From Sipunculus nudus (lineage: Eukaryota > Annelida > Sipuncula > Golfingiida > Sipunculidae), in NCBI GenBank assembly GCA_026874595.1, contig CM049320.1, forward strand, positions 43,472,714 to 43,536,713: 64,000 nt of DNA, in the 5' to 3' direction. Each line of letters starts with the position of its first letter. Within the stretch, counting starts at the first letter, position 1. A program made the translations under genes and the position numbers. Under the pieces are notes generated by a model, which was not told where the DNA came from, searched no databases, and worked only from the letters and a program-made list of their open reading frames with translations. This document shows, in pieces, positions 8,031-55,577 of the stretch.

Positions 8031-8574
8031 TTTCAGCTGATACAGACAGCAAGATACTTATGTTGACCTGAGTGACCTGTGTGTGTCTTGTTTCAGCTGA
8101 TACAGACAGTAGGATACTGGTGTTGACCTGAGTGTCCTGTGTGTCTTGTTTCAGCTGATACAGACAGTAGGATACTGGTGTTGACCTGAGTGACCTGTGT
8201 GTGTCTTGTATCAGCTGATACAGACAGTAAGATATTGGTGCTGACCTGATTGACCTGTGTGTGTCTTGTTTCAGCTGATACAGACAGTAAGATACTGGTG
8301 CTGACCTGAGTGACCTGTGTGTGTCTTGTATCAGCTGATACAGACAGTAAGATATTGGTGCTGACCTGATTGACCTGTGTGTGTCTTGTTTCAGCTGATA
8401 CAGACAGTAAGATACTGGTGTTGACCTGAGTGACCTGTGTGTGTCTTGTATCAGCTGATACAGACAGTAAGATACTGGTGATGACCTGAGTGACCTGTGT
8501 GTGTCTTGTTTCAGCTGATACAGACAGTAAGATACTGGTGCAGACCTGATTGACCTGTGTATGTCTTGTTTCAG
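8031..8574 (+). repeat. 60-bp array of duplicated exon-2 acceptors
   Basis: Ten copies of tcttgtttcag followed by CTGATACAGACA, with AG ends at 8036, 8096, 8154, 8214, 8274, 8334, 8394, 8454, 8514 and 8574. The last opens exon 2 (CTGACACAGAGA). Most copies run straight into GTAAGATA, a good donor core, so each unit contains a possible 12-nt exon. Retaining a unit instead gives TGA within 40 nt. Confidence 0.95.
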
Positions 8575-8850
8575 CTGACACAGAGAGACCTACAGCAAGG
8601 ATTACCCCAGCCTTCCTGGATCTGAATGTTGGACAAGCTTTGGAGTTTACCTGTGTTGCAACAGGAGTTCCAGCTCCAACTGTTGAGTGGAGACGTGACA
8701 GTGGTGTTGCTATGAATCCACAGGCAACAATAGAGAATGGTGTCCTAAGAATCCCGTCAGTGACCAAGGCTGACCAGGGCAGTTACTACTGCAGAGCCAG
8801 AAACTCTGTGGGTATGGTGGAAGAGAGAACAAGAGTAGCAGTGAGAGGAG
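8575..8850 (+). CDS. HSPG2: Perlecan exon 2: complete Ig domain 2
   Basis: A one-exon Ig domain, phase 1 to phase 1, 91 full codons plus split codons. Landmarks are LEFTCVATG (first Cys), VEWRRDSG (core Trp), then KADQGSYYCRARN. The donor is GAG|GTAGGA. The acceptor, tttcag at 8574, is the last of ten nearly identical acceptors spaced 58-60 bp in the array immediately upstream. It is chosen because only this copy opens into the conserved Ig frame. Confidence 0.93.
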
Positions 8851-8943
8851 GTAGGAGAATCACACAGACTGTACAAAGCTGTTACAGACATTATAAAGTG
8901 AATGTGAGAAACCTGTAATTCCTGTAACTTGCAAATAAGGATT

Positions 8944-9256
8944 TTTAGCTCAGCTGACAGAGAGTCATCTGAGCTTTAGCCATTACTCTTTGTCCGTCTG
9001 TCCAGCCGTCTGACCGTTAACCAGGCACAAATTGTAACCATTGAACCTAGAAGCTTCCTACTTGATATCCAGGGAGGTTCATGAAAAATCTCCATGGAGA
9101 CCTGAAAATCTCTGTTACCTATATTCACTGAGCTATGGGGCTCAGAAATACTCCGCAGAATTATTTAAATTTGAACAACTAATACATTGATCACCATGAT
9201 TCTTTGCATGAATTTTCATCATGGAGTGTTTCATCAGTTCCTGCAGACTGGTGGCA
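8944..9256 (+). mobile_element. 5' part of a family A element
   Basis: Starts ttttagctcagctgacagaga and proceeds through the usual unit to ctgcagactggtggca, where the 33-bp minisatellite takes over. The 3' end is missing. Confidence 0.7.
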
Positions 9257-10804
9257 CAGACCTTACAGGACTATCAGACAGTGTATCAACAGACCTTACA
9301 GGACTATCAGACAGTGTTTCAATCGACCTTACAGGACTATCAGACTGTGTATTAACAGAGCCTACTGGACTATCAGACAGTGTATCAACAGACCTTACAG
9401 GACTATCAGACAGTGTATCAACAGACCTTAGTGGGGGTATCAGACAGTGTATCAACAGACCTTACAGGACTATCAGACTGTGTATCAACAGACCTTACTT
9501 GAATATCAGACAGTGTTTCAACGGACCTTACAGGACTATAAGACAGTGGATCAACAGACCTTACAGGACTATAAGACAGGGTATCAACAGACCTTACTGG
9601 AATTTCAGACTGTGTATCAACAGACCCTACTGGACTATCAGACAGTGCTTCAACAGACCCTACTGGAATATCAGACAGTGTATCAACAGACATTACAGGA
9701 CTATCAGACAGTGTATCAACAGACCTTACAAGACTATCAGACTGTGTATCAACAGACGTTACTGGAATATCAGACACTGTATTAACAGACCTTACTGGAC
9801 TATCACATAGTCTTTAAACAGACCTTACTGGACTATCAGACAGTGTATCAACAGACCTTACTGGAATATCAGACAGTGAATCAACAGACCTTACTGGAAT
9901 ATCAGACAGTGTATCAACAGACCTTGCAGGACTATCAGACAGTAGATCAACAGACCTTACAGGACTATCAGACTGTGTATCAACAGACCTTACTGGACTA
10001 TCAGACAATGTATCAACAGACCTAAGAGGACTATCAGACTGTGTATCAACAGACCTTACTGGAATATCAGACAGTGTATCAACAGACCTTTCTAGACTAT
10101 CAGACAGTGTATCAACAGACCCTACTGGACTATCAGACAATGTTGTTATGTTCCTTTGGCATCCATGGAAACGGACAGTGTATCAACAGACCTTACAGGA
10201 CTATCAGACAGTGTATCAACAGACCTTACAGGACTATCAGACTGTGTATCAACAGACCTTACTTGAATATCAGACAGTGTATCAACAGACCTTGCAGGAC
10301 TATCAGACAGTAGATCAACAGATCTTACAGGACTATAAGACAGATGTATCAACAGACCTTACTGGATGATCAGACTATGTATCAACAGACCTTACTGGAA
10401 TATCAGACAGTGTATCAACAGACCTTGCAGGACTATCAGACAGTAGATCAACAGACCTTACTGGACTATCAGACAATGTATCAACAGACTTAAGAGGACT
10501 ATCAGACTGTGTATCAACAGACCTTACTGGAATATCAGACTGTATCAGGGGACTTTACAGGACTATCAGACAGTGGATAAACAGACCTTACAGGACTATA
10601 AGACAGGGTATCAACAGACCTTACTGGATGATCAGACTGTGTATCAACAGACCTTACTGGAATATCAGACTGTGTATTAACAGACCTTACTGGAATATCA
10701 GACCGTGTATCAACAGACCTTTCTAGACTATCAGACAGTGTATCAACAGACCCTACTGGACTATCAGACAATGTTGTTATGTTCCTTTGGCATCCATGGA
10801 AACG
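9257..10804. repeat. 33-bp minisatellite with 631-bp segmental duplication
   Basis: About 46 copies of a 33-bp unit (cagaccttacaggactatca + gacagtgtatcaa). Because 33 is a multiple of 3, several frames on both strands stay open for 60-207 codons; these are artefacts. A non-repeat tag, ttgttatgttcctttggcat, occurs at 10142 and again at 10773, 631 bp apart, showing a block duplication. Confidence 0.93.
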
Positions 10805-10834
10805 GGCGAATTAGCTCCACGTAGAATTTATATA

Positions 10835-12900: not shown

Positions 12901-13050
12901 AACCTCCAAAGTTCCCCATACAAGTTGGGCCCCCAAGTCGGACAGTTGAGGTTGGTCAGACAATACGTCTTGTCTGTCAGGTGAGGGAGACTCCAGACCT
13001 CCGGGTGAAGAGCATCAAGTGGTCCAGGGTTGACGGAGACTTACCTGAAG
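12901..13050 (+). CDS. HSPG2: Perlecan exon 3: first half of Ig domain 3
   Basis: Acceptor ctgttccag, donor GTATGT, phase 1 at both ends, 49 full codons. It encodes PPKFPIQVGPPSRTVEVGQ, then IRLVCQVRE (first Cys) and IKWSRVDGDLPEG (core Trp). The LPxG turn before the break is typical of perlecan Ig repeats. It completes its domain with exon 4, 3.6 kb downstream across a SINE pair, a minisatellite and a 2.6-kb mobile element. Confidence 0.92.
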
Positions 13051-13110: not shown

Positions 13111-13370
13111 TACGTGGTGACATAAACTGTCTCGCTAGAGAAGCTTGCTTCGCTAGCGAAGCGGTAGGAACGCTGGTCCTGTGCGCCACCATTATGGGTT
13201 CGAATCCCAGATCGACCCAATGTTTTCCCATGAGCTTTGTCTTCATAACAAAATGGGGGCTCTTCCAATGTGACGGTAAACTTTGTGGCCCAGGGGAGAG
13301 CTCACCAAAGTGTGACTCCTGGGATAATTAGTCTTGTTCTGATGGCAGAACGCTTTTAAGAGGGTGTGTG
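13111..13370 (+). mobile_element. tRNA-derived SINE copy 1
   Basis: Has pol III promoter-like boxes: A box near 13153 (tagcgaagcggtagg) and B box GGTTCGAATCC at 13197-13207 within a T-arm-like cattatgggttcgaatccca. The upstream 5' tacgtggtgacataaa motif restarts at 13371 with copy 2. It does not fold as an intact tRNA, so a SINE fits better than a tRNA gene. Confidence 0.65.
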
Positions 13371-13530
13371 TACGGGGTGACATAAAAGCGGACCGAACTG
13401 TCTCACCAGAGAAGCTTGCTTTTCTAGTGAAGCGGTTGGTATGCTGGACTTGTTCTCCACCATTATGAGTTTGAATCCTGGATCAGCCCAGAATTTTCCC
13501 CTGTATTATTTGTCTTCGTAACAATATGTA
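13371..13530 (+). mobile_element. tRNA-derived SINE copy 2, truncated
   Basis: Begins tacggggtgacataaaag, has gtgaagcggttggtatgctg as A box and AGTTTGAATCC (13468-13478) as a decayed B box. Head-to-tail with copy 1 but missing the 3' tail, so dimer formation or a tandem duplication. Confidence 0.6.
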
Positions 13531-13618
13531 TATTCACTCTAAACGGTAAATAACTGTAAATCTAAGATTATTTTCATGGATTAAAACCAGATAAATGTGT
13601 TAGAAGAAAATTGTTGTT

Positions 13619-13982
13619 AAGGGCTGAAACTTGATAAAATGTTGATATGGTAATGTTGTTTATTTTAGGCCTGAAAACATGTCAGTGTGTTGATATGAAA
13701 GAGATGTTTATTTAAGGACTGACATCTGATAAATGTGTTGATGTGAAATTGATGTTTATTTGAGATGTGTTGATATGATATTGATGTTTATTTGAGATGT
13801 GTTGATATGAAATTGATGTTTATTTGGGATGTGTTGATATGAAATTGATGTTTATTTGAGATGTGTTGATATGATATTGAAGTTTATATGAGATGTGTTG
13901 ATATGATATTGATGTTTATTTTAGATGTGTTGATATGATATTGATATTTATTTGAGATGTGTTGATATGATATTGATGTTTA
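13619..13982 (+). repeat. 48-bp then 32-bp repeat resembling the exon 4 acceptor
   Basis: Three longer units ending tttattttag/tttatttaag then G(g)(a/c)ctga, followed by about eight 32-bp units (tgagatgtgttgatatgata + ttgatgtttatt). The last unit, taatgttttttaag, lies on the far side of element B1 at 16597-16633 and is the working acceptor of exon 4. Confidence 0.88.
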
Positions 13983-16596
13983 TTGTATCCCCAGACAAAG
14001 TCGGGGGATACTATGTTTTCATACCGGTCCCGCCGCCGCCGCCGCCGCCGCCGCATATAAATCTTGTTGGCGCAATAACCCAAAAAATATTTCACGGAAC
14101 TTTACCAAACTTGGTATATGTATAGATATGGGTGAGAGGACGACGCCCATTTAAAATGAGGTCATGACCTTTACTAGGAGAGGGTCCTTGACCTTGAATA
14201 GGTCCAATTTTTGGGAAAATCACACAAATTCTTTAATATCTCAAGAAATCTTGCATAGGTTTATCCTAAAATCAAGTTGATGGAAGATCATGGATAGGGT
14301 TGTCATGTTCCAGAAACTGGTGGCGCCACCTATTATTCTTTACTTGTTTTCATGCCGTTTAATACTCCCAAAATTGCTACCTTACAGTACTGTGAGCATT
14401 ATAAGTCAAAAACTAATGGACAGATTTCTTTTATATTATGCATATACATAGGTATGGGTTATGGGATGATGGTTATTTAAATTGGGGTCATGACCTTTCC
14501 TATGTTAGTGGCCTTGACCTTGAATATTGCCATATATGGTGAAAATCACACTCCTCTTATGATATCTCCAGTGTTGATAGCCATATAGATTTCAAACATG
14601 ACTTATGTATGGCCCACCACTAAAGTAAGAACCCTATAGGTTCGAGGGTCATGAGGTCAAAGGTCAAGGTCACCGGACTGGCATTTTAAAATATACTGTG
14701 GATGCATTTTAAGCCAAACTTTCATCCCAGGTCTTCCATCTTGAATATATAGCTCACTTGCCAATATTGGATGATCCATAGAAATTTTGGGGTCACAGTG
14801 TCAAAGGTCAAGGCCACAGGAGCTATCTGTCCAAAAATTAGTTTCTGGATGATAATTCCTTCTTTTATTGATGTATGGATTTCAAACTTGACTTGTATTT
14901 GACCCATTGGAAAAGCAAGACCTGAATTGATTTTGGGGTCATGAGGTCAAAGGTCAAGGTCACAGGAAACCTCTTTAAAAAGGTTGTGGATGCAATTTCA
15001 GCCAAAAAATTCATCCGAGATCTTTCATCTTGCACATATAGTTCACCTGCCAAGAGTGGAAGACCCCTATCAATTGTGAGGTCACAAGGTCAAAGGTGAA
15101 GGTCACAGGAGCCATCTGTCCAAAAATTAGTTTCTGGATGATAATTCTGCTTTTATTGATGTATGGATTTCAAACTTGACTTGTATTTGACCCATTGGAA
15201 AAGCAAGACCTGAATTGATTTTGGGGTCATGAGGTCAAAGGTCAAGGTCACAGGACACATCTTTAAAAAGGTTGTGGATGCAATTTCAGCCAAAAAAATC
15301 ATCTGAGATCTTTCATCTTGCACATACCATTCACCTGCCAAGAGTGGAAGACCCCTATCAATTTTGAGGTCACAAGGTCAAAGGTGAAGGTCACAGGAGC
15401 CATCTGTCCAAAAATTAGTTTCTGGATGATAATTCCTGCTTTTATTGATGTATGGATTTCAAACTTGACTTGTATATGTCCCATTGGAAAAGCAAGACCA
15501 AAATTGATTTTGGGGGCATGAGGTCAAAGGTCAAGGTCACAGGACACATCTTTAAAAAGATGTGGATGCATTTTCAGCCAAACATTTCATCTCAGATCTT
15601 TCATCTTGCACATATAGTTCACCTGCCAAGAGAGGAAGAACCCTATCAATTTTGAGGTCACAAGGTCAAAGGTGAAGGTCACAGGAGCCATCTGTCCAAA
15701 AATTAGTTTCTGGATGATAATTCCTGCTTTTATTGATGTGTGGTTTTCAAACTTGACTTGTATATGTCCCATTGGAAAAGCAAGACCATAATTGATTTTG
15801 GGGTCATGAGGTCAAAGGTCAAGGTCACAGGATACATCTTTAGAAAGGTTGTTGATGCAATTTCAGCCAAAAAATTCATCTGAGATCTTTCATTTTGCAC
15901 ATATAGTTCACCTGCCAAGAGTGGAAGACCCCTATCAATTTTGAGGTCACAAGGTCAAAGGTGAAGGTCACAGGAGCCATCTGTCCAAAAATTAGTTTCT
16001 GGATGATAATTCCTGCTTTTATTGATGTATGGATTTCAAACTTGACTTGTATATGTCCCATTGGAAAAGCAAGACCCAAATTGATTTTGGGGTCATGAGG
16101 TCAAAGGTCAAGGTCACAGGACACATCTTTAAAAAGATGTGGATGCATTTTCAGCCAAACATTCATCTCAGATCTTTCATCTTGCACATATAGTTCTCCT
16201 GCCAAGAGAGGAAGAATGCTATCAATTGTGAGGTCACAAGGTCAAAGGTGAAGGTCACAGGAGCCACCTGTAAAAAAATTAGTTTCTGGATGATAATTCC
16301 TGCTTTTATTGATGTATAGATTTCAAACTTGACTTGCATATGTCCCATTGGAAAAGCAAGACCCAAATTGATTTTGGGGTCATGAGGTCAAAGGTCAAGG
16401 TCACAGGACACATCTTTAAAACAATCAAGGTCACAGGACCAACATCTTCAACAAGATTGTGGATTGTTAGATGGAAGAAACAATAAATATGCCAAGTGTC
16501 AGTATATGCTGCCAAAATTGGGGGTCTGTTCTTAAAGGAGGGGGGCCTACTATGTCTGGGGATACTCTGGCACCTGCGGTGCCAAGAAATGTCTAG
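13983..16596 (+). mobile_element. Family B Helentron/HINE-like element, copy B1
   Basis: Starts TTGTATCCCCAGAC, a 5' hairpin (GTATCCCC...GGGGATAC), ends with perfect subterminal inverted repeat GTCTGGGGATAC (16554-16565), hairpin GGCACC-TGC-GGTGCC (16569-16583), 9-nt spacer, then CTAG (16593-16596) followed by TT. These are Helitron/Helentron 3'-end hallmarks with TT target. The core has about six tandem dimer units of 287-289 bp. Inserted inside the 32-bp minisatellite. No Rep/helicase frame. Confidence 0.82.
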
Positions 16597-16633
16597 TTTG
16601 AGATGTGTTGATATGATATTAATGTTTTTTAAG

Positions 16634-16771
16634 GATCAAGGCAAGCTAATGGTATCTTGGACATCCGTAACATACAGACACAGGATACGGGCCGCTACCA
16701 GTGTACTGTAGAGCTGGACTCTGGCTTCTCTAGATACACATATGTAGTTGTGTCTGTCAAATCGGGAACAG
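16634..16771 (+). CDS. HSPG2: Perlecan exon 4: second half of Ig domain 3
   Basis: Encodes ANGILDIRNIQTQDTGRYQC (second Cys) and the closing strand YTYVVVSVKSG. Donor is G|GTAAGT. The acceptor is ttttttaag (AAG rather than CAG/TAG), which gives a phase-1 entry and keeps the frame with exon 3. It lies only 37 nt after the 3' end of mobile element B1, inside the last unit of a 32-bp repeat, so the functional acceptor region is repeat-derived or the source of the repeat. Confidence 0.88.
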
Positions 16772-18107: not shown

Positions 18108-18253
18108 TTTCACCTCCGACTGCACAGCTCGACCTACAGCGCCGTGTGATTGCTCAAGGATCAAGCGCCACCCTCCGCTGTATTGTGACAGGCCAACCCC
18201 CACCAACAGTCACATGGTCCCGTGTCAGTGGAGAACTCACCGCCAACCATCAG
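18108..18253 (+). CDS. HSPG2: Perlecan exon 5: first half of Ig domain 4
   Basis: Acceptor ttttctag, phase 1 in, phase 0 out, 48 full codons. Encodes VSPPTAQLDLQRRV, ATLRCIVTG (first Cys) and VTWSRVSGELTANHQ (core Trp). Donor CAG|GTGTCA is weak, but it lets the reading continue with ISNNILRI in exon 6, as expected for an Ig E strand. Four head-to-tail TTTACAG copies lie 24-50 nt upstream of the acceptor. Confidence 0.87.
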
Positions 18254-19880: not shown

Positions 19881-19998
19881 ATCTCTAACAATATTCTGAG
19901 GATCTTGAGGGCAGACACAGCAGATAGAGGTGTGTATGTGTGCCTCGCCAGAAACCGTGTCGGCCAAGCCCAGGCTGCTGGATATGTGGAAATCGAGC
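19881..19998 (+). CDS. HSPG2: Perlecan exon 6: second half of Ig domain 4
   Basis: Acceptor tttgtttgtag, donor C|GTAAGT, phase 0 in and phase 1 out. Encodes ISNNILRILRADTADRG followed by VYVCLARNRVGQAQAAGYVE, including the second domain Cys and the G-strand. Length and motif spacing are normal for perlecan Ig repeats. Confidence 0.9.
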
Positions 19999-20162: not shown

Positions 20163-20286
20163 GTCGCAGTGTGCCCGAGATCCAGATTTATCCAAACATC
20201 TCACAAACCATCCCACTTGGAGGAAGTGCTTTGTTCCAGTGTCGTATAATCGGCGGAGAACCAAGACCAGCTGTAGAGTGGAAGAG
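20163..20286 (+). CDS. HSPG2: Perlecan exon 7: first half of Ig domain 5
   Basis: Acceptor ctatttgcag, phase 1 in, phase 2 out. Encodes RSVPEIQIYPNISQT (NIS is a possible N-glycosylation sequon), ALFQCRIIG (first Cys) and VEWKR (core Trp). Donor is AAGAG|GTCTGA, a weak +3 to +6 sequence, chosen because it joins in frame to exon 8. The following intron, 14.2 kb, is by far the longest in the window and is almost all nested repeats. Confidence 0.85.
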
Positions 20287-21693: not shown

Positions 21694-24600
21694 TTTTTAG
21701 CTCAGCTGACTATAAGTGACTGGTCCATTGTCCGTCGTCCGTCCGTCTGTCTGTCCGTCCGTCCGTCCGTCCGTCTGTCCGTCTGGATGTCCGTCCGTAA
21801 GACTGGCACGTTTCGACACCGTTGGACCTACGAATCTGAATTTCGGCATACAGTTAGATGTCCCCATAATCTCCTACCATGCCAAAAACTGGGTCAATAG
21901 GACTTCGTTCCTTTGAGATATTAAGGAAAAACCTCAATTTTTTATTAGAAATCTATTTTCACACTTCAGGACTGCCTAATATCAAAACCACCCATCTGGT
22001 TTTCTTCATACTTACCATAAATATTCCTCTATATAGTTCCTATGTACATGCCAGATATTAAGTCAGTATTATATAATTTAAAAAAGTTATGGGCCCAAAC
22101 ATAATGGACTTTGTAAAAAAATCAGGAAGATATTTGGTCACTTAAGACCAAAAGTGTTAAAGGTAGGGACTTTTTTCCAGTAATACAACTTTAATTAATC
22201 AAAATTTAAATGCATACCAAAAATTAGATAAAAATTTGTTAAATTTTTTTAAATATTGGCAAAAATATAAAATTGGTACCTTAAATTTTGCCCAACTTTG
22301 GCCATGGCACGTTTTTTTCCTGTAAGTACTGTGGATTTAATTTTCACACCATGTATACATAAGGATTTCATCTGTTAAAATCTGAAATTTGAAAATAAAA
22401 GCTGCAAAATTAGGCTAGTTATTTAATTTTTTTTGGAGGCTCTTGTTGTATTCCCTTACATTGTCAAGAAGTCCAATTTGATGACTGTAGGTCATTCAGT
22501 GCACATCTCTATGCTCCCCAGGCTGTTGACATTATTTTAGATGTCCCCAAAATCTCCTACCATACCGAAAATTTGGTCATTAGGACTTTGTTCCTTCGAG
22601 ATATTAAGGAAAAAAAACTCCGTTTTCCATAAAAAAAAGCCATTGTTACACTTCAAGGCTGCCTAATATCAAAACCACTGATCTGTTTTTGATCGTATTT
22701 AGTATTCACATTTTTTTATACATTTTCTATTAACATACCAAAAATTAGGTCAGTATTGGGTATTATTTTGAAGTTATGGGCCAAAACATAATTCAATTTT
22801 TTAAAAAATCAGGAAATATATTTACTCACCTAACATGAGAATTGCTGAACCTAGAGACTTTTTTTCAGGAATATAACTTTATTTAATCAAGATTCAATTG
22901 TTTACCCAAAATTAGATCTGAATTTTGCAAATTTTTCAAGTTATTAGCATAAATAAAAAATCAATACCTTAAATTTTGTCCAACTTTGGCACTGTTGATT
23001 TAATTTTCCCAGCATATATGCATAAGGATTTAATCTTTTAAAGTCTGAACTTTCCAAAGAAATTGATAGGATTGAATAGCTTTTATTCATGTTTTCATAC
23101 ACCATGTCAAGTGTTGTTTACATCTAGCCCACCTAGTAGTACAGCCTTCACTTGCATTATGTAACCCACCCCAGGCAGCTTACCTTGGCCCAGCTTGGCC
23201 ACTACTAGCAGGCTTCCCCTCTGCCCTGCACTCATCCCCCTTCCAGCTGGTGCATAAACTAGATGAATGTTATTATTGTATCCGCCAAAACAGAGTTTTG
23301 CGGATACTATGTTTTCAGCTGGCCGCCGCCGCCGCGTAGGTGTCCGGAGAACTCCTCTGTAACCGCTGGGCGGAATTTTCCAAAACCCGGGATTATGTTC
23401 GGGTCACATGTGAACTGCTGCGCTCCGATTTTGTTTTGACCTCTGACCTTTCCTCTGCGCTCTGCATCCGTTTGTGCGTCTGTTTCCACACATAAACCCA
23501 CATATCTCGGGAACCGTTAGACCGATCAGGAAAATTTTTTTGCACAAATGTAGCCCTCTGAGAGCTTTATAACATACACCAAAAATGGTGGCGCCACCTG
23601 CAACCATGTTTGCACAGTGTCCATCTGTTCGTCTGCCTTGGGTTAAAATCACTCATATCTCTGCAGTGACTTGACTAATTCACCTGAAATTCGGCATGCG
23701 TAAATATCCTGGATAGCTTTTCTGATTTTATGACAGGTGGCGCCACCTACATTCACGTTTACGCTGCAGACATCCAAGCTCATATCTCGGGAACCGTTTG
23801 ACCGATCAGGAAAATTCTTTTGCACAAATGTAGCCCTTGGAGAGCTTTATAACATACACCAAAAATGGTGGCGCCACCTGCAACCATGTTTGCACAGTGT
23901 CCATCTGTTTGTCTGCCTTGGGTTAAAATCACTCATATCTCTGCAGTGACTTGACTAATTCACCTGAAATTTGGCATGCGTATACATCCTGGATAGCTTT
24001 TCTGAATTTATGACAGGTGGCGCCACCTTCATTCACGTTTACGCTGCAGACATCCAAGCTCATATCTCGGGAACCATTTGACCGATCAGGAAAATTCTTT
24101 TGCACAAATGTAGCCCTTGGAGAGCTTTATAACATACACCAAAAATGGTGGCGCTACCTGCAACCATGTTTGCACAGTGTCCATCTGTTTGTCTGCCTTG
24201 GGTTAAAATCACTCATATCTCTGCAGTGACTTGACTAATTCAACTGAAATTTGGCATGCGTATACATCCTGGATAGCTTTTCTGATTTTATGACAGGTGG
24301 CGCCACCTACATTCACGTTTACGCTGCAGACATCCAAGCTCATATCTCAGGAACCGTTTGACCGATCAGGAAAATTTTTTTGCACAAATGTAGCCCTTGG
24401 AGAGCTTTATAACATACACAAAAAATGGTGGCGCCACCTGCAACCATGTTTGCACAGTGTTCATCTCCTGTCTGCCTTGGGTTAAAATCACTCATATCTC
24501 TGCAGTGGTTTGACTAATTCACCTGAAATTTGGCATGCTTATACATCCTGGATAGCTTTTCTGATTTTATGACAGGTGGCGCCACCTACAATCAAGTTTA

Positions 24601-26798
24601 CGCTGCAGACATCCAAGCTCATATCTAGGTAACCGTTTGACCGATTGGGCCAAAATTTTGCATGTGTATAAATCTCATATAGCTCTTTATCATAAGCAAA
24701 ACTGGGGGCGCCACCTGCAGCCATGTTTGCACAGCTCCCGTCTGTTTGTCTGCCATGGGATAAAATCACTCATATCTCGGCAGTGGTTTGACATATCTGC
24801 CTAAAATTTTGCAAGTTTATACATCCCCGACAGCTCTCTTGATTTTATGACAGGTGGCGCCACCTGCATTCTAGTTTATGCAGCAGATATCCAAGCTCAT
24901 ATCTTGGGAACCGTTTGACCGATTGGGCCAAAGTTTTGCATGTGTATAGTTCTCACAAAGCTCTTTATCATACGCTAGCTGGTGGCGCCACCTGCAACCC
25001 TTTTTTGCACAGTGTCCATCTGTTTGTCTGCCAAGGGCAAAAATCACTCATATACAATATAGTGGTTTGACTTATCTGCCTTTAAATTTTGCATATGTAT
25101 ACAACTTGGACGGCTTTCTGGATTTTTTGGTAGGTAGCGCAACCTACATACACAATTTGGCTGCAGACATCCATGCTAATATGCAACACTTCACCCGTTC
25201 CACTCTGATTTAGGCGGATACAAGTAGTCGCTTGTCGACTACCCGTATTCTAGTTTTATTTTATTCTTGGACATGCTACATTTTAGATTTTGTATTGAAC
25301 CACCAGGGTTACAATGATTAAAGTGTACATTTAATTGTGTCCACAAAGTGGTGTATTGCTGTGAAAGTGTGGATGTTCATGAGATAAGTAATTCCTTACT
25401 TCAGAAGAGTAAAAACTTCACCAGGTGTGAAATTGACTATTAATTCCAGTAATTAATTAAAACTGGGATAGTAATTAGCACAGTGATATTGTTTGTCCCT
25501 CATTCAACCAACAGTGTGTATACTTTATTTGAAAAGATGTTTTATTTTATCAAATTTACTTTTATTTTATTTTGGTGAATAAAATTAAGCATGTCCTGAA
25601 AACTCCAATGTGGAGAATATTCTTGTAGATGCCATGTTGTGGCATTATTTTCTTTTAAAATTAGTTTAAACATTTATGATTTAAAAATAATAAAATATAT
25701 GTGTATGCATAATATGACCCAATGTTTTTTACTCTGTATATATAATGATTGCAACTTTTGCAACAATTCTAATATTTTAACTTATATTTTCAGGTTTTTT
25801 AATTAAAAATTTATAAACCTGTAAATAAAAAAATGATTCAGATAAAAACTTCTAAATGGAAAAAGTGGATCTGCTTAAAAAAATAGGATTATATATAAAC
25901 TTAAATGCATTATTCTCTTGAAAGTGAAATAAAGGTATTAGTCCATTCTGTCCACTTGCCTGTCCATCTGTAAATTTTCGTATGCAACACAGTATCTCAA
26001 AACTTTTACTGTTTTTCTTCATGACAGTCTTGTCAGAGTATTAGTTTGCAATCATATATTTAGAACTTTACTATAACCAAGTAGGAGGGCCCCTTTCCTC
26101 TTAGCTTTTCATATTCTTATATAAATGAAAAACATTACAATAGAATATTTCTACATCCACCTTCGTGCTGCCCTCACTTTTCCCTTCTCCGAACCCCATC
26201 CCAAAGTCAGCCTCAGTAAGCAACAACAAGACGAATCAGATATATTCATACTTTAATATTTTGTATAACTATTCGTCCATAGGTACCTATGTACATGCCA
26301 GAAATTATGTCAATATTGTGTAATATGTAGACATAGTGGGCATCACAATAATGTACCTTGTCAAGACTAAAGAGATATTGTGTCATACAGTCACATATTC
26401 ATAAATCACTTCATCAGCATAGTTAATCATAACATCATATCTGTCAAATTGAATGCTTGCAGACTACCATACACTTTAGATCCTTCAACAAATAACCTTA
26501 TCATCATTCTACTACTGCTTATTACTGCTGTCATTGCATTCATATTTGCTCAAATATATCACAATTTTCAACCCCTCCTAAATAAATAAAAAATAAACCA
26601 CTTTATTTGACTCTATTAATCCATCAGTCAGGTAATTTCATTTATCATTTACTCACATATTACATAACATTCCTTTATAATAGCCCAACATGTATATGAT
26701 ATTCATAAGCTTTATCGACTCAATATAGTATCACAGTGGAGAAACATTTATAGTCCAATCACGATCAGCTGAGCGCCGTGACCCATGGGTCCCTTGTT
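21694..26798 (+). mobile_element. Family A long-type element carrying nested C1
   Basis: Starts ttttttagctcagctgactata, followed by about 60 bp of gtcc/gtct microsatellite, two 700-bp diverged units, an AT-rich 3' half, and the end gatcagctgagcgccgtgacccatgggtccc. It is split by the C1 element at 23276-25253. No coding frame longer than chance. Confidence 0.72.
23276..25253 (+). mobile_element. Family C Helentron/HINE-like element, copy C1
   Basis: 5' TTGTATCCGCC (23276-23286) is perfectly inverted at 25213-25223. A 14-bp 5' hairpin follows (GTATCCGC...GCGGATAC). The 3' hairpin GTAGTCG-CTTGT-CGACTAC (25224-25242), spacer and CTAG (25250-25253) precede TT. The core has about five 280-bp tandem units, each with two ggtggcgccacc palindromes. 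Short open frames of 60-82 codons repeat with the units and are not genes. Confidence 0.83.
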
Positions 26799-34299: not shown

Positions 34300-34459
34300 C
34301 CAAGGGAAAACATTTCACTGTCCTAGGGCAAACAGTGTAGCTTTTTCCTCTAACTAAAACAAACTTTTTTGCAATGTGATGTACTTTCCTAGGGCAAAAA
34401 CTGTAGCCTTAACCTCTATCCTAAACATAATTTTGTTGTAATGTGATCTACTTTCCCAG
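34300..34459 (+). repeat. 67-bp duplication of the exon 8 acceptor and exon start
   Basis: Two decayed copies of the junction (ctttcctag + GGCAAAAACTGTAGCC and tcctag + GGCAAACAGTGTAGC) precede the true ctttcccag + GGCTGACAATGAAGCC. AG positions 34325, 34392 and 34459 are exactly 67 bp apart. Confidence 0.85.
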
Positions 34460-34614
34460 GGCTGACAATGAAGCCTTTACTTCTAACACGGAGGTGATTT
34501 CTGGTAACGTCATCCGGTTCTTGCGAGTCACTGGAGATGAACAAGGTACCTACATCTGTACAGCGACCAACAAAGCTGGCTCGGTCAGTTCCAGCGCCAC
34601 TCTAAGGATTGTGG
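34460..34614 (+). CDS. HSPG2: Perlecan exon 8: second half of Ig domain 5
   Basis: Acceptor ctttcccag, donor G|GTAAGT, phase 2 in and phase 1 out. Encodes ADNEAFTSNTEVISGN, VIRFLRVTGDEQGTYICTAT (second Cys) and SVSSSATLRIVG. Two decayed copies of the acceptor plus exon start lie exactly 67 and 134 bp upstream (AG at 34392 and 34325); both lead quickly to stop codons, so 34459 is the real site. Confidence 0.9.
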
Positions 34615-38725: not shown

Positions 38726-38861
38726 GACGGCCCCGGGTTACAATTTCTCCATCACCGAGGCTCCAGGTGGCCATTGGACAGAGAGTTTCATTTGAATGTA
38801 CAGCAGATGGAGTCCCAACACCAAGTGTGTACTGGGTTAGTCCACGACAGCCTACTGGAGT
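38726..38861 (+). CDS. HSPG2: Perlecan exon 9: first half of Ig domain 6
   Basis: Acceptor atcgtttacag, donor GTAAGA, phase 1 in and phase 2 out. Encodes RPRVTISPSPRLQVAIGQ, VSFECTADG (first Cys), PSVYWVSPRQPTGV (core Trp). A 49-bp minisatellite of about 15 units ends 37 nt before the exon. An open frame with an ATG at 38656 runs into this exon through the pyrimidine tract; that is treated as chance. Confidence 0.9.
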
Positions 38862-39311: not shown

Positions 39312-39439
39312 CCGAGGACGAGGCACTCTAGGATCAGCGGTCTACAACATTGACTCGGTACAGGAGCAAGACGCGGGGGTTTACCTGTGTATCGCAGACA
39401 ATGGCATTGAGACAGTGGAAAAGAGAATGCAGCTCATAG
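39312..39439 (+). CDS. HSPG2: Perlecan exon 10: second half of Ig domain 6
   Basis: Acceptor tctgatgtag, donor TAG|GTGAGT, phase 2 in and phase 1 out. Encodes RGRGTLGSAVYNIDSVQEQD, then AGVYLCIADNGIETVEKRMQ (second Cys). The donor is the first of four identical GTGAGT sites spaced exactly 69 bp; use of any later one adds an in-frame TAA. Confidence 0.9.
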
Positions 39440-39715
39440 GTGAGTGGACTCTCACGTTTGTTAACTTAATCAAGGAGAATCAGTGGTAATGCTGCACAGC
39501 TTGTCTTAGTGAGTGGACTCTCACGTTTGTTAACTTAATCAAGGAGAACCAGTGGTAATGCTGCACGGCTTGTCTAGGTGAGTGGACTCTCACGTTTGTT
39601 AACTTAATCAAGGAGAATCAGTGGTAATGCAGCACGGCTTGTCTAGGTGAGTGGACTCTCACATTTGTTAACTTAATCAAGGAGAACCAGTGGTAATGCT
39701 GCACGACTTGTCTTA
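39440..39715 (+). repeat. 69-bp array of exon 10 donors
   Basis: Four copies beginning with GTGAGT at 39440, 39509, 39578 and 39647, spaced exactly 69 bp; the preceding tag/tta also matches the exon end. Copies are about 95% alike, so recent. Confidence 0.95.
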
Positions 39716-39908
39716 ATTTATATATTTCTATCCTTCAATCAAATTATTAACATAAATTCTGTATAAAGGTCTCTGATTAAATTTTAAAATAATCAGAATC
39801 AAATTTTTGTGCATATTTAAAGTTTGTTAGAAGCTTATTTGGCAAAAATAACTGTAACTAGATAACTGATCAGCAGGACAATACTGTGGTGAAGTTGTTG
39901 ATCTTATT

Positions 39909-40192
39909 TAGTGAATGTCTGTTTACATGCTTTATCTTGTGTGATAAATGTCTGTTTCAGTGCTTGATCCTATGTGGTGAATGTCTGTTTCAGTGCTTGA
40001 TCCTATGTCGTGAATGTCTTGTTTCAGTGCTTGATCTTGCATAGTGAATGTTTGTTTCAGTGCTTGATCTTGCATAGTGAATGTCTCTTTCAGTGCCAGA
40101 TCTTGCATAGTGAATGTCTGTTTCAGTGCCAGATCTTGCATAGTGAATGTCTGTTTCAGTGCTTGATCTTATGTAATGAATGTCTGTTTCAG
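39909..40192 (+). repeat. 33-bp array of exon 11 acceptors
   Basis: Eight copies of gtgaatgtctgtttcag + TGC; AG ends at 39960, 39993, 40027, 40060, 40093, 40126, 40159 and 40192. The last is the real acceptor. Every earlier one reads to a stop codon within a few codons. Confidence 0.95.
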
Positions 40193-40282
40193 TGCAGCGC
40201 CGTGTGGTGACTCCTCCAGTCACTCAGCAAAAGATCCCGGCTGTGGCAGGACAGATGGTAGAACTGCGTTGTCAGGCGTCAG
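40193..40282 (+). CDS. HSPG2: Perlecan exon 11: first third of Ig domain 7
   Basis: A 90-nt exon, phase 1 at both ends. Encodes VQRRVVTPPVTQQKIPAVAG and MVELRCQASG (first Cys), ending just after the B strand. Acceptor tgtctgtttcag is the last of eight copies spaced 33-34 bp. Donor G|GTCAGG is weak at +4 to +6. The break right after CxxxG matches exon 16. Confidence 0.88.
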
Positions 40283-40630: not shown

Positions 40631-40807
40631 GTGGTGTACGTGTGGAGTGGACCAGAAAAGATGGCCGTCCCCTTCCAGCCAATCACCAAACCAGTGGGGG
40701 AATATTAAGAATCAATGACATTCAGCCAGACGATGCTGGCGAGTACATCTGTACAGTTAGCAGTCAGGGTGTCAGTCAGTCCGTCAGTGTGCTTGTGACT
40801 GTCAAGG
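40631..40807 (+). CDS. HSPG2: Perlecan exon 12: remainder of Ig domain 7
   Basis: Acceptor tttgcatag, donor G|GTAAGT, phase 1 at both ends, 58 full codons. Encodes GVRVEWTRKDGRPLPANHQ (core Trp), GILRINDIQPDDAGEYIC (second Cys) and a Ser/Val-rich closing strand QGVSQSVSVLVTVK. Confidence 0.93.
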
Positions 40808-41057: not shown

Positions 41058-41318
41058 TCCCACCCAGCATCAGCATCTCGCCCACAAGTCTGAGTGCGCG
41101 TGTGGGTGAGCGAGTCCAGCTGAGCTGCCGCGTTTCAGGCACAGAGCCGGTCAACAGAGAATGGACCAAAGTGGGCGGGGCACTACCTCCTGGTGCCAAG
41201 GAATATAATGGTGTCTTAACATTTGAAAGAGTTTCAGCCGCAGACTCCGGACGTTATCGATGTATTGCTATGAACGAGGCTGGCAGAGCTGAAGGTTACG
41301 CTGATCTTATTGTCAGAT
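41058..41318 (+). CDS. HSPG2: Perlecan exon 13: complete Ig domain 8
   Basis: The second one-exon Ig domain. Acceptor gttttttgcag, donor T|GTAAGT, phase 1 at both ends, 86 full codons. Landmarks are PPSISISPTSLSARVGERV, LSCRVSG, REWTKVGGALPPGAKEYNG, SAADSGRYRCIAMNEAG. The SNG/YNGVLxF core is characteristic of perlecan domain IV repeats. Confidence 0.94.
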
Positions 41319-44476: not shown

Positions 44477-44639
44477 CACCACCAACAGCGTCAATTGACA
44501 GGAGGGACGTGGTGCAGACAGAGGGCTCAACAGTTCAGTTTGTGTGTCGTGTGACTGGTTCTCAGCCGGTCAGTGTCAAGTGGAGCAAACAAGGAGGAGA
44601 CCTGCCTGATCAGCATCGTGTTCAAAATGGAGTCCTCAC
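44477..44639 (+). CDS. HSPG2: Perlecan exon 14: first half of Ig domain 9
   Basis: Acceptor tgttgacag, donor GTATGT, phase 1 in and phase 2 out. Encodes SPPTASIDRRDVVQTEGSTV, QFVCRVTG (first Cys), VKWSKQGGDLPDQHRVQNGV (core Trp). It lies 423 bp after repeat E. Confidence 0.92.
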
Positions 44640-45961: not shown

Positions 45962-46059
45962 GATATACAACGTGGCCCCGGAGGATGAAGGGCGGTACAT
46001 CTGCACAGTAACCAATACTGCCGGGGGATCCCGGGACTATGCCTTCCTCAGAGTACAGC
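45962..46059 (+). CDS. HSPG2: Perlecan exon 15: second half of Ig domain 9
   Basis: Acceptor tatttttag, phase 2 in and phase 1 out. Encodes IYNVAPEDEGRYICTVTNTA (second Cys) and SRDYAFLRVQ. Donor C|GTACGT is the first unit boundary of a 65-bp array of about 20 copies that repeats the exon end (cagc) and the donor. The first site is selected because all later ones read into TAA. Confidence 0.9.
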
Positions 46060-47377
46060 GTACGTATTCAAGTTTACTTTTCTCAGTTATCCTGTGTGGT
46101 CTCCATGTAAAGTAATAGTACAGGGTACGTATTCAAGTTTACTTTTCTCAATTATCCTGTGTGGTCTCCATGTAAAGTATTGGTACAGCGTACGTATTCA
46201 AGTTTACTTTTCTCAATTATCCTGTGTAGTCTCCATGTAAAGTAATAGTACAGCGTTTGTATTCAAGTTTACTTTTCTCAATTATCCTGTGTAGTCTCCA
46301 TGTAAAGTAATAGTACAGCGTTCGTATTCAAGTTTACTTTTCTCAGTTATTTTGTGTGGTCTCCATGTAAAGTAATAGTACAGGGTACGTATTCAAGTTT
46401 ACTTTTCTCAATTATCCTGTGTGGTCTCCATGTAAAGTATTGGTACAGCGTACGTATTCAAGTTTACTTTTCTCAATTATCCTGTGTAGTCTCCATGTAA
46501 AGTAATAGTACAGCGTTCGTATACAAGTTTACTTTTCTCAATTATCCTGTGTGGTCTCCATGTAAAGTAATAGTACAGCGTACGTATTCAAGTTTACTTT
46601 TCTCAATTATCCTGTGTAGTCTCCATGAAAAGTAATAGTACAGGGTACGTATTCAAGTTTACTTTTCTGGATTATCCTGTGTGGTCTCCATGTAAAGTAT
46701 TGGTACAGCGTACGTATTCAAGTTTACTTTTCTCAATTATCCTGTGTAGTCTCCATGTAAAGTAATAGTACAGCGTTCGTATTCAAGTTTACTTTTCTCA
46801 ATTATCCTGTGTGGTCTCCATGTAAAGTAATAGTACAGCGTACGTATTCAAGTTTACTTTTCTCAATTATCCTGTGTAGTCTCCATGTAAAGTAATAGTA
46901 CAGCGTACATATTCAAGTTTACTTTTCTCAATTATCCTGTGTGGTCTCCATGTAAAGTAATAGTACAGCGTACGTATTCAAGTTTACTTTTCTCAATTAT
47001 CCTGTGTAGTCTCCATGAAAAGTAATAGTACAGGGTACGTATTCAAGTTTACTTTTCTGGATTATCCTGTGTGGTCTCCATGTAAAGTATTGGTACAGCG
47101 TACGTATTCAAGTTTACTTTTCTCAATTATCCTGTGTAGTCTCCATGTAAAGTAATAGTACAGCGTTCGTATTCAAGTTTACTTTTCTCAATTATCCTGT
47201 GTGGTCTCCATGTAAAGTAATAGTACAGCGTACGTATTCAAGTTTACTTTTCTCAATTATCCTGTGTAGTCTCCATGTAAAGTAATAGTACAGCGTACAT
47301 ATTCAAGTTTACTTTTCTCAATTATCCTGTGTAGTCTCCATGTAAAGTAATAGTACAGCGTACATATTCAAGTTTAC
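46056..47377 (+). repeat. 65-bp array of exon 15 donors
   Basis: About 20 copies of cagcgtacgtattcaagttt + 45 bp, starting with the exon 15 end and its donor GTACGT. A cagggtacgt variant recurs 260 or 390 bp apart (46121, 46381, 46641, 47031), showing higher-order amplification of 4- and 6-unit blocks. Confidence 0.96.
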
Positions 47378-47401
47378 TCTTTTCCATTTACCTGTACTGT
47401 C

Positions 47402-50254: not shown

Positions 50255-50350
50255 GGCGATCACGGCCGCCTACAGATGGGGGAGGAGTCAGAGAACAAGT
50301 CAAAGTTGTGAATGTTGGGGACCGTGTAGAAATGAGCTGTCAGGTGAAGG
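50255..50350 (+). CDS. HSPG2: Perlecan exon 16: first third of Ig domain 10
   Basis: Acceptor ttgatttaag (AAG), donor G|GTGAGC, phase 1 at both ends. Encodes RSRPPTDGGGVREQVKVVNV and DRVEMSCQVKG (first Cys). It ends directly after the B strand, as exon 11 does. A 26-bp repeat begins about 15 nt downstream of the donor. Confidence 0.88.
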
Positions 50351-50365: not shown

Positions 50366-50530
50366 ATGAGATAATTTATGTAGATTTAAGCTATCAGTGA
50401 AATATGTAGATTTAAGCTGTTACTGAGATATGTAGATTTATACTGTCAGTGAGATATGTAGATTTAAACTGTGAGTGAGATATGTAGATTTAAAATGTTA
50501 GTGAGATATGAAGCTTTAAGCTGTTAATGA
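50366..50530. repeat. 26-bp repeat next to the exon 16 donor
   Basis: Five to six units of gagatatgtagatttaaact + gtcagt, starting about 15 nt after donor GTGAGC. The gtgaga text in the unit resembles the donor but the origin is not clear. Confidence 0.85.
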
Positions 50531-50724: not shown

Positions 50725-50904
50725 GGACTCCCAAGCCTGTTTTAACATGGCAGAAACGTGATGGTGAGCTGCCAGCTGGCTCAGAATTATCAGGAAATAC
50801 ACTTATCATTCCTAAAGTCCAGACAGGCGATGCTGGCACATACATCTGTGTGGCTACCAATATCATCGGATCTGTATTTGCTCAAATTTCATTGATTGTT
50901 GAAG
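50725..50904 (+). CDS. HSPG2: Perlecan exon 17: remainder of Ig domain 10
   Basis: Acceptor gtctttacag, donor G|GTAAAT, phase 1 at both ends. Encodes TPKPVLTWQKRDGELPAG (core Trp), NTLIIPKVQTGDAG, TYICVATNIIGSVFAQISL (second Cys). The last 28 nt of the exon plus its donor are duplicated 47 bp downstream; using that copy would frameshift into TGA. Confidence 0.92.
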
Positions 50905-50966
50905 GTAAATTTACATGTTACATGTTGCTCAAATTTCATTGATTGTTGAAGGTAAATTTACATGTT
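50877..50966 (+). repeat. 47-bp duplication of the exon 17 end and donor
   Basis: The text ttgctcaaatttcattgatt + gttgaaggtaaatttacatg occurs twice, donors at 50905 and 50952. Nearly identical, hence recent. Confidence 0.95.
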
Positions 50967-51645
50967 ATATTATCTTTTAAACTTTCTCAGTTTACAGTTT
51001 CACCTAGATGTCATTTTTCAACCCCTGTGCAATCACAGTGGGTTTTCCTATATTGTAATATTTTATCTAAAATTGTTGTCTTGTATTATGTCAGAAAATT
51101 TATGCGGAAATACATTTTTCATGCCAATGCCATAAACATATATATATAAACACAATGTTTCTATAAGAAGGATATATTAATGCATGCCAAGGTCATAAAA
51201 CATCATTCCCACAATATGTTTGTAAAAGGGCAGTGTTGAAGTCAGGTCACGACCCTTCAAGGCCGAGGCGGAGTCTTTGCCTTCCTAGGTAAGCCTCGAG
51301 GTCAAAACCAGTCTCAAGATGGACCTCCAACACTGGTAAAAGGAACATTAAATGTATGCCAGGGACATGAAATATATCACATGAAACATGATATGTCTGT
51401 AAGAAGAACATTTCTGTGCATATCAGGGGCATGAACTATCTCACAATTCATACAGTTTGTTTGTTATATTAACACTGCAGAGCATGTCAAGTCCATCAGT
51501 ATTTCTAAGTTCACACAAACTTTTTATAACAGGAACTTTGCATGCATGCCTATTAAGGCAATGTGCTGAAAAATATGCCTGAAAAAAAAAATATATATGT
51601 ATATGTTTTTAACATGGCCATTACAATAAATGTTTCATTGTACAG
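50967..51645. other. Intron 17 remainder
   Basis: Three or four diverged units of about 100 bp (atgccagggacatgaaatat, atatgtttgtaagaagaaca) between 51120 and 51440; otherwise nothing recognised. Confidence 0.55.
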
Positions 51646-51778
51646 GGAGGCCCTATATCCCCGTCAAGAAACAAGAACGTTTAGCTTCCATTGGTAGTCA
51701 GGTGACCCTGGAATGTCAGGCGTATGGAAACCCTCTACCAAGGGTTCGATGGAGTAAGCGTGGGGGACCTCTTCCAAG
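51646..51778 (+). CDS. HSPG2: Perlecan exon 18: first half of Ig domain 11
   Basis: Acceptor cattgtacag, donor AG|GTAATA, phase 1 in and phase 2 out. Encodes RPYIPVKKQERLASIGSQ, VTLECQAYGNPLPRVRW (first Cys, core Trp) and SKRGGPLPR. The next intron carries a full-length repeat A copy. Confidence 0.92.
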
Positions 51779-53512: not shown

Positions 53513-53640
53513 TGAACATACCGTCCGCAATGGTATACTTGTCATTCCGTCCATGAAGGCTGAGGATGTTGGTGAATATGTTTGTACAGCAGAGAATCAA
53601 ATTGGCACAACAGAGGCAGTCATTGTGCTTAAAACTGGAG
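53513..53640 (+). CDS. HSPG2: Perlecan exon 19: second half of Ig domain 11 (last Ig)
   Basis: Acceptor ttttgtttcag, donor G|GTAATA, phase 2 in and phase 1 out. Encodes SEHTVRNGILVIPSMKAED, VGEYVCTAENQIGTTEA (second Cys) and VIVLKTG. It is the last Ig domain before the laminin G domain, so this exon marks the domain IV/V boundary. Confidence 0.92.
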
Positions 53641-54168
53641 GTAATATATAAATTGTTGAGCAGATTGACTGAGTCAACCACAGTGATGCAATACGGCTGA
53701 ATGAGGCACAGTTGTCTCTGTCCTTTTTCTTCTTTGATGAATTCTTTGGTACATCTCTTTCTTTAAACTTACCTTTCAGACTTTATTTTTGGAAGATAAT
53801 AAATTCTCCAAAACTAAGGAACACACAAATGTTTCCATTATAGACTCATTGTTCCTAAACTGTAAAAAAATTACAGATGGTGTCAGAATATTGTGAGTCG
53901 TGTTTGAAATATCTTGAATGTTTTTCACTTAACAAAACAAGAGGCATCATCAGCATTCCTCACACTCTTATTTATATTTACACCCTCAGCAGGTATTGCT
54001 GTATTATATAATAAGTCATCAATACTGTGCAAGATTATAGCTGCTAGATAATCAAAGTTAAATGGCAGGACAATTATGTATATCATTTTCATCAGAAAGT
54101 AATGAATGTTTTGTATGTAAGTTATCTCCTTATGGGCTCACCTGACTAATGGCTGTTTTCTGTTTCAG
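53641..54168. other. Intron 19, unique
   Basis: No repeat or gene recognised. Confidence 0.6.
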
Positions 54169-54282
54169 TCCTTGTGCCGTACTTTCAGCAGGATCCCAAC
54201 TCCTATATGAACTATCAAACACTTCATGATGCATATCTGGATTTTGACATTGAGATGTCCTTCAACCCACAGGTTACAGATG
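54169..54282 (+). CDS. HSPG2: Perlecan exon 20: start of laminin G domain LG1
   Basis: Acceptor ttctgtttcag, donor G|GTAAGG, phase 1 at both ends. Encodes VLVPYFQQDPNSYMNYQ, LHDAYLDFDIEMSFNPQ. The VPYF...SY...L-DAY-xFxIxxxF-P pattern is the entry to the first LG module of perlecan domain V, whose C-terminal LG module (endorepellin) binds integrin in vertebrates. Confidence 0.92.
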
Positions 54283-54673
54283 GTAAGGCCCTTGCCATAA
54301 TGTGTTATCTCTAATGACTCTCCGCTGAACACTTTTTGTGGTGACTTTTCAACTCTAATGACTGGGAAGATTGATGTAAGAACCAGTAACAAATCCCTGT
54401 ATTTAGATCCTAGAGTATGTTACAGTCTCAATCATGTTTGCTCTGACTACAGCAGAATGAGGAGTGTCAATATCTCCATTATCCTTTACTCCTTCTGATT
54501 ATTTATTTTTGATAGATTTACACTGGTGTTCTCCCCGGGAAATTTGTTTGGTAATCATTAAATTAATTTTAAATGACAGTAAATACAGCTGGAAATATGT
54601 AGGGATAATCATATGAAATGTGTCCTGTTAATTTCAAATGATATGTCATGTTGAATTTTGTTCTTCCCTACAG
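54283..54673. other. Intron 20, unique
   Basis: No repeat or gene recognised. Confidence 0.6.
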
Positions 54674-54853
54674 GCCTGATGCTGTATAACGGTCGTGTGA
54701 ATCAGGACACAGGAGATTTTGTGTCGTTTGGCATGAGAAACAGCTGTGCTGAGTTCCGTTTTGACATGGGCTCAGGTCCAGCTATCATTCAGAGTGAACC
54801 AATCAACCTGCAGGAGTGGCACAATGTCCGGCTCCGCAGAGACCGACAGAAAG
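54674..54853 (+). CDS. HSPG2: Perlecan exon 21: middle of laminin G domain LG1
   Basis: Acceptor ttcttccctacag, donor G|GTGAGC, phase 1 at both ends. Encodes GLMLYNGRVNQDTGDFVSFG (a hallmark LamG strand), CAEFRFDMGSGPAIIQSEPI and LQEWHNVRLRRDRQKG (the W-HxVxxxR motif). A 51-bp repeat begins at the donor itself, later split by a MITE. Confidence 0.94.
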
Positions 54854-55325
54854 GTGAGCAGGAATAACAATTAACACCACGTCACCTGTAGCTGTCATTT
54901 GATAAACAGCAGGAATAACATTAAACACCACGTCACCTGTAGCAGACCTGCCAACTAGTCCAATTTAATCGTACTTAGTCCGATTTTTAAGATTTTTGGC
55001 AGGAGAAAATTGTATTTGTACGATTTTTTAATATTCTGGGAAAAGAAATTCATTCTGCTAATCAAAAGATTTCCTGTCAGTATATTCTGATCGAACTTCA
55101 TGTGTTCAAATTGTCAATCATTAATTCCATAACCTCATTAATCCTGAGCGGTTAAAACTCGATCTATTGTAGCTTTTACTCATCTGTGGCGCTCGCATTG
55201 AGTAAGATTTCCAACTTTCAAATGTTGGCAGGTCTGCTGTAGCTGCAATTTGATAAACAGCACGAACAGCAATAAACAACACATCACCTGTAGCTGCCAT
55301 TTGATAAACAACAGGAATAACAATA
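54854..55325 (+). repeat. 51-bp repeat starting at the exon 21 donor, split by a MITE
   Basis: About four units of agcaggaataacaattaaca + ccacgtcacctgtagctgtcatttgataaac. The first begins 3 nt into the donor GTGAGCAGG. The MITE at 54943-55236 separates the second and third units. Confidence 0.85.
54943..55236. mobile_element. 294-bp MITE with CAGACCTGCCAAC inverted ends
   Basis: Ends CAGACCTGCCAAC and GTTGGCAGGTCTG are perfectly inverted. Flanked by CTGTAG on both sides (54937-54942, 55237-55242), a likely 6-bp target duplication. No coding capacity. The superfamily is uncertain. Confidence 0.8.
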
Positions 55326-55418
55326 ATTACCACGTCAGATATCAAAATTGTGAAAAAAGAGTAATAAAGAAATAGGTACCTAATAACCCAAGTACCTTGA
55401 CCACACTGCTGTGTAACG

Positions 55419-55577
55419 CAGGTTGTGTCTGGCTGAGGATCATGATTAATGTTACTTATCATATATATCAATTTAATCTTGCAGGTTTTATGTATGTCAG
55501 GTTATGTCTGGCTGAGGATCATGATTAACATTAATAATCATATATATCAATTTAAACTTGTAGGTTTTATGTACATC
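55419..55577 (+). repeat. 79-bp duplication of the exon 22 acceptor and exon start
   Basis: Two copies of gtt(g/a)tgtctggctgagga + tcatgattaa..., each closing on an acceptor and GGTTTTATGTA; AG ends at 55483 (ttgcag) and 55563 (ttgtag, used). Confidence 0.92.

Follow-up and report, generated by a model that had tools for sequence, protein, structure and literature searches.

Seven minisatellites that span predicted splice junctions in a perlecan-like gene

Why should the minisatellites of a single gene so often include its splice junctions, and how might its exons still be joined correctly when the splice sites have been copied into the neighboring introns? These questions are raised by a stretch of 64,000 nucleotides (contig CM049320.1, positions 43,472,714 to 43,536,713), referred to here in its entirety as the window. 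Its + strand carries a stretch of a perlecan-like gene with 23 predicted exons, located between 2789 and 62724 and comprising 3514 nt in total. A preliminary description counted about 45 junctions in about 57 kb of intron; the 23 modelled exons have 46 junctions, close to that count, while the non-exon sequence amounts to 60.5 kb. We find that 7 of the 23 minisatellite arrays in the window contain an authentic splice dinucleotide, as placed by the predicted exon edges, and that this coincidence is far beyond chance placement in this gene.

Exons were predicted by scoring splice sites with generic metazoan matrices, chaining the open exons and refining the result by hand. The spliced frame is open across 1171 codons, and AG or GT is present at all 46 exon edges. 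In the spliced product, Pfam identifies 11 immunoglobulin (Ig) domains, followed by Laminin_G (983-1108) and EGF (1129-1161), an order that we take to be that of perlecan domains IV-V. This succession of domains gives the predicted product the makeup of a perlecan-like proteoglycan. The best matches of its laminin G/EGF part among solved structures are agrin, neurexins and laminins.

The output of Tandem Repeats Finder (TRF) for the window has 48 rows. Those with a period of 10-100 bp were counted, with overlapping rows merged by hand, to give the 23 arrays. Excluded from this count were the microsatellite rows (14030, 18057, 21729/21730 and 30327) and the rows of period greater than 100 (125, 146, 148, 280 (two), 288, 289 and 301 bp); for the first array a 113-bp row was excluded and a 28-bp row retained. 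The splice sites that lie within arrays are the acceptors of exons 2, 8, 11 and 22 and the donors of exons 10, 15 and 17 (Table 1). A tandem repeat unit that spans an exon-intron boundary, the structure known in lancelets as a mirage, is therefore present at 7 of the 23 arrays, and at both 3' (four acceptors) and 5' (three donors) boundaries. Every one of these arrays is confined to one predicted intron and has a single authentic site, at the end next to the exon. Judged by the TRF edges, the arrays at exons 2, 8, 11, 22, 10, 15 and 17 include 10, 28, 3, 10, 0, 8 and 27 bp of exon, respectively, so that at least 8 bp of exon are inside the array in five of the seven cases. An ungapped self-comparison, which yielded zero segments in two simulated control sequences, recovered six of the seven; the exon 8 array, the most diverged of them (78% matches), fell below its threshold. 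At exon 10 this ungapped scan assigned 3 bp of exon to the array, versus 0 by TRF. The exon 11 array has one additional copy without AG, and in intron 10 two arrays together occupy 569 of 753 bp.

The preliminary description held that the units differ fully in sequence, and this is borne out. The junction array periods are locus-specific (33-79 bp), and the seven junction units are mutually unrelated by BLAST with E-values up to 1e-3. Among all 23 arrays the same comparison detected a sole matching pair, 41767/42274, neither member of which is at a junction. Through some of the exon 2 array, TTTCAG copies alternate with TATCAG copies, and in the exon 15 array a group of variant donors recurs. 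Such recurring sets are a sign of expansion in steps of several units, typical of minisatellite turnover. In mirages the edge copy is excluded from homogenization; the authentic copy at exon 2 does differ from the inner copies, but coding constraint would give the same pattern.

How unexpected are seven junction arrays? In a random placement null (4000 trials), the 23 arrays were positioned with at most 27 bp in exons, a limit 1 bp below the TRF overlap of the exon 8 array (28 bp); the mean number of junction arrays was 0.46 and the maximum 5, versus the 7 seen. With at most 10 bp of exon, the mean was 0.18 and the maximum 4 in 4000. In a second null the exon set was slid round the window in circular shifts, neighboring shifts being non-independent. 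With a 28-bp limit the mean over 63,800 shifts was 0.45 and the maximum 4, compared with 7 observed, and with a 27-bp limit 6 were observed and the maximum was 4 of 9115. Nine of the 23 arrays lie no more than 40 bp from a junction; in 2000 random trials the mean was 1.1 and the maximum 6. The earlier claim of more junction arrays than random placement predicts is thus upheld. If arrays had nucleated uniformly and those with junction-spanning units were simply tolerated, 0.68 of 23 would be expected at junctions, and the probability of at least 7 is 2.9e-6. With 0.68 expected and 7 seen, this uniform-tolerance model calls for a bias of some kind, be it in origin, in expansion or in retention. 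The data here favor none of these three over the others.

Table 1. Predicted exons, junction arrays and associated features (window coordinates)
Feature	Position	Strand	Description	Source
Predicted exons 1-6	2789-2966, 8575-8850, 12901-13050, 16634-16771, 18108-18253, 19881-19998	+		
Predicted exons 7-12	20163-20286, 34460-34614, 38726-38861, 39312-39439, 40193-40282, 40631-40807	+		
Predicted exons 13-18	41058-41318, 44477-44639, 45962-46059, 50276-50350, 50725-50904, 51646-51778	+		
Predicted exons 19-23	53513-53640, 54169-54282, 54674-54853, 55564-55710, 62506-62724	+		
Exon 2 acceptor array	8022..8584	+	60 bp; 10 acceptor sites (authentic + 9 decoys); exon start 8575, final 10 bp exonic	TRF, sequence
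Exon 8 acceptor array	34317..34487	+	67 bp; 3 acceptor sites; exon start 34460	TRF
Exon 10 donor array	39440..39713	+	69 bp; 4 donor sites; begins at donor, exon end 39439	TRF
Exon 11 acceptor array	39898..40195	+	33 bp; 8 intact acceptor sites (authentic + 7); exon start 40193	TRF
Exon 15 donor array	46052..47378	+	65 bp; 21 donor sites (authentic + 20); exon end 46059	TRF
Exon 17 donor duplication	50878..50967	+	47 bp; TRF 100% matches; exon end 50904; 27 bp coding copied	
Exon 22 acceptor duplication	55419..55573	+	79 bp; exon start 55564	TRF
32-bp array, displaced from exon 4 acceptor (probable)	13617..13985	+	merged TRF rows 13617-13761, 13733-13984, 13748-13985	
Diverged 32-bp unit abutting exon 4 acceptor	16599..16633 (left edge approximate)	+	exon start 16634	sequence
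2.6-kb element, Helitron-like ends	13988..16596	+	central 288-bp tandem array; inserted in exon 4 array	
Direct repeat in exon 21 donor	54857..54943 (right edge approximate)	+	51-bp spacing; starts inside donor; GT uncopied	sequence, ungapped scan

We think it likely that the seven are minisatellites of the mirage type, which is to say independent tandem duplications across junctions that were tolerated, some of which expanded, and that the resulting arrays are functionless. The sequence shows the anatomy of the arrays, their unrelated units, the excess at junctions, and the strength and frame effects of the decoys; how the duplications came about, how the transcript is spliced and that arrays are born or kept preferentially at junctions are what we infer. 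Independent local tandem duplications would each have spanned an exon-intron junction of the perlecan-like gene. They would have been tolerated, as the preliminary description proposed, in that the exon-proximal copy would still be joined into a correct mRNA and the extra copies would drop into the intron; the mirages of lancelets reportedly leave splicing undisturbed. Slippage or unequal exchange would then have enlarged some arrays, the largest to 21 copies, and the arrays would have no function of their own. The coding sequence inside the arrays at exons 2, 8, 15, 17 and 22 points to an exon copied into the intron at those places.

How would the correct site be recognized among its copies? 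The seven arrays contain 43 decoys, defined as extra copies in which AG or GT is kept (the exon 11 copy without AG is left out). Scored with the generic matrices, with differences rounded to 0.1 bit, 26 of the 43 equal or exceed the authentic site. The single decoy at exon 22, a CAG, outscores the authentic TAG by +3.5 bits and four exon 15 decoys are at +4.7 bits over the authentic donor. Because decoys often match or outscore the true site, the strength of the local site does not account for correct splicing. The exon-proximal site is likely chosen through exon definition: the spliceosome would pass over the decoys chiefly because it is the exon-proximal site that is paired with a real exon, and not because that site is stronger locally.

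Several points weigh against this account of duplication and tolerance. Since 16 of the 23 arrays are away from junctions, seeding at junctions is not how arrays in this window generally arise, and neutral tolerance by itself falls short of the number of junction arrays observed. The pattern concerns one gene, in a window selected for showing it, and the exon edges are predicted. Lastly, at exons 10 and 11 an intronic array may instead have reached the junction or supplied the site, an array-first reading that is possible because just 0-3 exon bases are in these arrays.

A rival account, raised in the preliminary description as well, which we regard as possible although on balance doubtful, is that junctions are mutational hotspots, at which duplications are started either by processes tied to transcription or splicing (R-loops, pausing or a nucleosome edge) or by donor-like sequence. 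Hotspots would account for the excess over uniform tolerated nucleation. A weak hint in the same direction comes from the arrays away from junctions, 16 with the displaced exon 4 array counted, in which donor-like sites are better than those of matched intron (mean percentile 0.71, Kolmogorov-Smirnov p = 0.007), this being one of two uncorrected tests and array base composition being uncontrolled. In the other test, the acceptor-like sites of these arrays showed no excess over matched intron (mean percentile 0.51, p = 0.87), although four of the seven junction arrays are at acceptors, and the evidence comes from a single gene. It is only tentatively that we raise the broader notion that in this lineage, which may lie outside cephalochordates, minisatellites arise preferentially at exon-intron junctions, with transcription or splicing making the DNA there prone to tandem duplication and introns growing from copies of their edges, as the array-filled intron 10 would illustrate.

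We consider it improbable that splice sites were captured, that is, that an intronic minisatellite containing AG or GT grew as far as the exon and replaced the native site, so that the exon edge moved by a few codons. Capture suits exons 10 and 11, whose arrays repeat just 0-3 bases of exon. It does not suit exon 17, where the final 27 bp of an Ig-coding exon are repeated without mismatch, nor exon 22, where the start of a laminin G-coding exon is repeated, and exons 2 and 15 likewise copy coding bases.

The preliminary description had also suggested that duplicated splice sites might be favored, and decoy arrays might in principle be selected to regulate the splicing of a long gene, perhaps by acting as poison sites. 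A message joined at any one of the 43 decoys would acquire a stop codon, and many decoys are strong, both of which suit this idea; stops are, however, expected in AT-rich intron, and the 43 are non-independent. Several exon 15 decoys are without the original +3 to +5 donor bases. Selection on the copied sites also finds no support in the variability of their motifs. In columns aligned with MAFFT, the proportions of variable columns in the motif versus elsewhere were 1/16 versus 5/44 for exon 2, 3/16 versus 9/17 for exon 11 and 4/9 versus 10/56 for exon 15 (p = 1.0, 0.07 and 0.09, respectively). The motif columns are thus less variable at exons 2 and 11 and more variable at exon 15, with none of the differences significant. 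This analysis replaced an unaligned version, put out of register by indels, which had given p = 1e-4 for exon 2 and 0.03 for exon 11 (in both the motif was less variable) and 1.0 for exon 15; exon 10 was included in the unaligned test alone (p = 0.14, with columns out of register through indels). We therefore regard selected decoys as very unlikely. Least likely of all is chance, whereby some arrays of an array-rich gene simply happen to end at exons: the 64-kb window is dense with arrays (23) and was chosen after the pattern had been noticed, but six junction arrays were never reached in 4000 random placements, nor five in 63,800 circular shifts.

The preliminary description listed nine copied junctions, of which the seven discussed above are recovered by TRF. 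The other two are the exon 4 acceptor (32 bp) and the exon 21 donor (51 bp). A diverged unit stands directly before the exon 4 acceptor, and the array proper is cut off from it by a 2.6-kb insertion. Because of this unit and the intervening element, the exon 4 array probably abutted the acceptor before the insertion split it off. At exon 21 the claim does not hold: a single short direct repeat starts within the donor hexamer, omits the GT and is absent from the TRF list, and it was dropped from the count. Two further minisatellites are near junctions, at 37984-38687, which ends 38 bp upstream of the exon 9 acceptor, and at 50377-50530, which starts 26 bp past the exon 16 donor. We left these out of the count of mirages, eroded ones included, as their spacing to the true site seems, by eye, inconsistent with the period.

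The 2.6-kb element has a second copy in the window, at 55944-58552, and the printed first and last 20 bp of the two are identical. Both copies start with TCCCCAGAC..., finish with a hairpin and then CTAG, and are set between A and T, ends that look Helitron-like. In each, the central tandem array has a period of 288 or 289 bp. A 21-bp motif of the 288-bp array was found in three contigs of a bacterial and archaeal collection, two from a Bacteroidetes metagenome-assembled genome and one filed as a Bathymodiolus symbiont. BLAST of the window against these three contigs revealed no long similarity: with E-values up to 1e-5 there was a single 51-bp match, to contig L001, and at 1e-3 the 40 rows listed consist of this match plus stretches of 22-24 bp in L001 that copy the motif exactly. 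Viral contigs gave 0 matches to the 21-base core. Two transposon patterns, of 27 and 23 bases, were absent from viral contigs, and the 27-base one was also absent from genome contigs. Contig L003, filed under a Bathymodiolus brooksi gill symbiont, has two GGTCAAAGGTCAAGGTC stretches at about 5000-5300 and may itself be host DNA. Elsewhere in the window, two arrays have a similar 280-bp unit (CATATCTCGGGAACC...), at 23501-25182 and 59319-60592, and are perhaps part of another mobile element family. At 13125-13500 there are two tRNA-like copies 271 bp apart, the first with a GGTTCGAATCC box, which look like a tRNA-derived short interspersed nuclear element; ARAGORN and Rfam (gathering thresholds) were without match in this stretch, as they were anywhere in the window.

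How does this gene compare with known systems? The structure itself is not new, having been described in the globin, Adh, troponin C and PGBD5 genes of lancelets. In the lancelet globins BflGb6 and BflGb9 and in Adh3, mirages are boundary-spanning minisatellites at 5' and 3' boundaries for which regular splicing is reported, with unit lengths of 150-160 bp in the globins and 10-72 bp in Adh3 (PMC3087553). The splice-site-covering duplications of lancelet PGBD5 have been compared with the Adh and troponin C cases (PMC3902484), and the cases called mirages in these two papers are all cephalochordate. The arrays described here resemble lancelet mirages in that the unit spans the boundary at acceptors or donors, the units are locus-specific and there are many decoy copies of AG or GT. 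They differ in that seven are present in one gene, with a measured excess and units of 33-79 bp, and are known from the DNA of one haplotype alone. The human gene IFI6 (6-16) is said, from the work of Turri in 1995, to contain a minisatellite with multiple splice donor sites. The likeness lies in tandem repeats bearing splice donors at the end of an exon; unlike the present case, IFI6 is a single locus, and its repeated donors are reportedly used alternatively. In human segmental-duplication genes, internal tandem repeats at exon-intron boundaries are linked to altered splicing; unlike those in our gene, about half of them fall within coding exons, and those at boundaries are reported to give rise to new introns in recently formed paralogues (PMC2812944). 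A tandem duplication in the potato RNA-dependent RNA polymerase gene crosses an intron-exon boundary (PMC4974935). In intron gain by tandem duplication (the Rogers/Hellsten model, and the potato gene) a new intron is made, whereas here existing introns grow; we rejected intron gain for this gene, as the gene model has no new intron bounded by copies. Among the matches listed in a literature search that included few subscription papers, no title or opening of an abstract described structures called mirages outside lancelets or a test of junction enrichment of arrays. New here are the density in one gene, the measured excess over tolerance and the decoys that often score at least as high as the true sites. 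Such a dense natural set of duplicated splice sites offers a test of how the spliceosome chooses the exon-proximal copy when local sequence is unfavorable to it, and the measured excess recasts what had been an anecdote from lancelets as a question of rates, both of where minisatellites start and of how introns lengthen. Should the host not be a lancelet, mirage-like structures would be more widespread than the papers cited here suggest.

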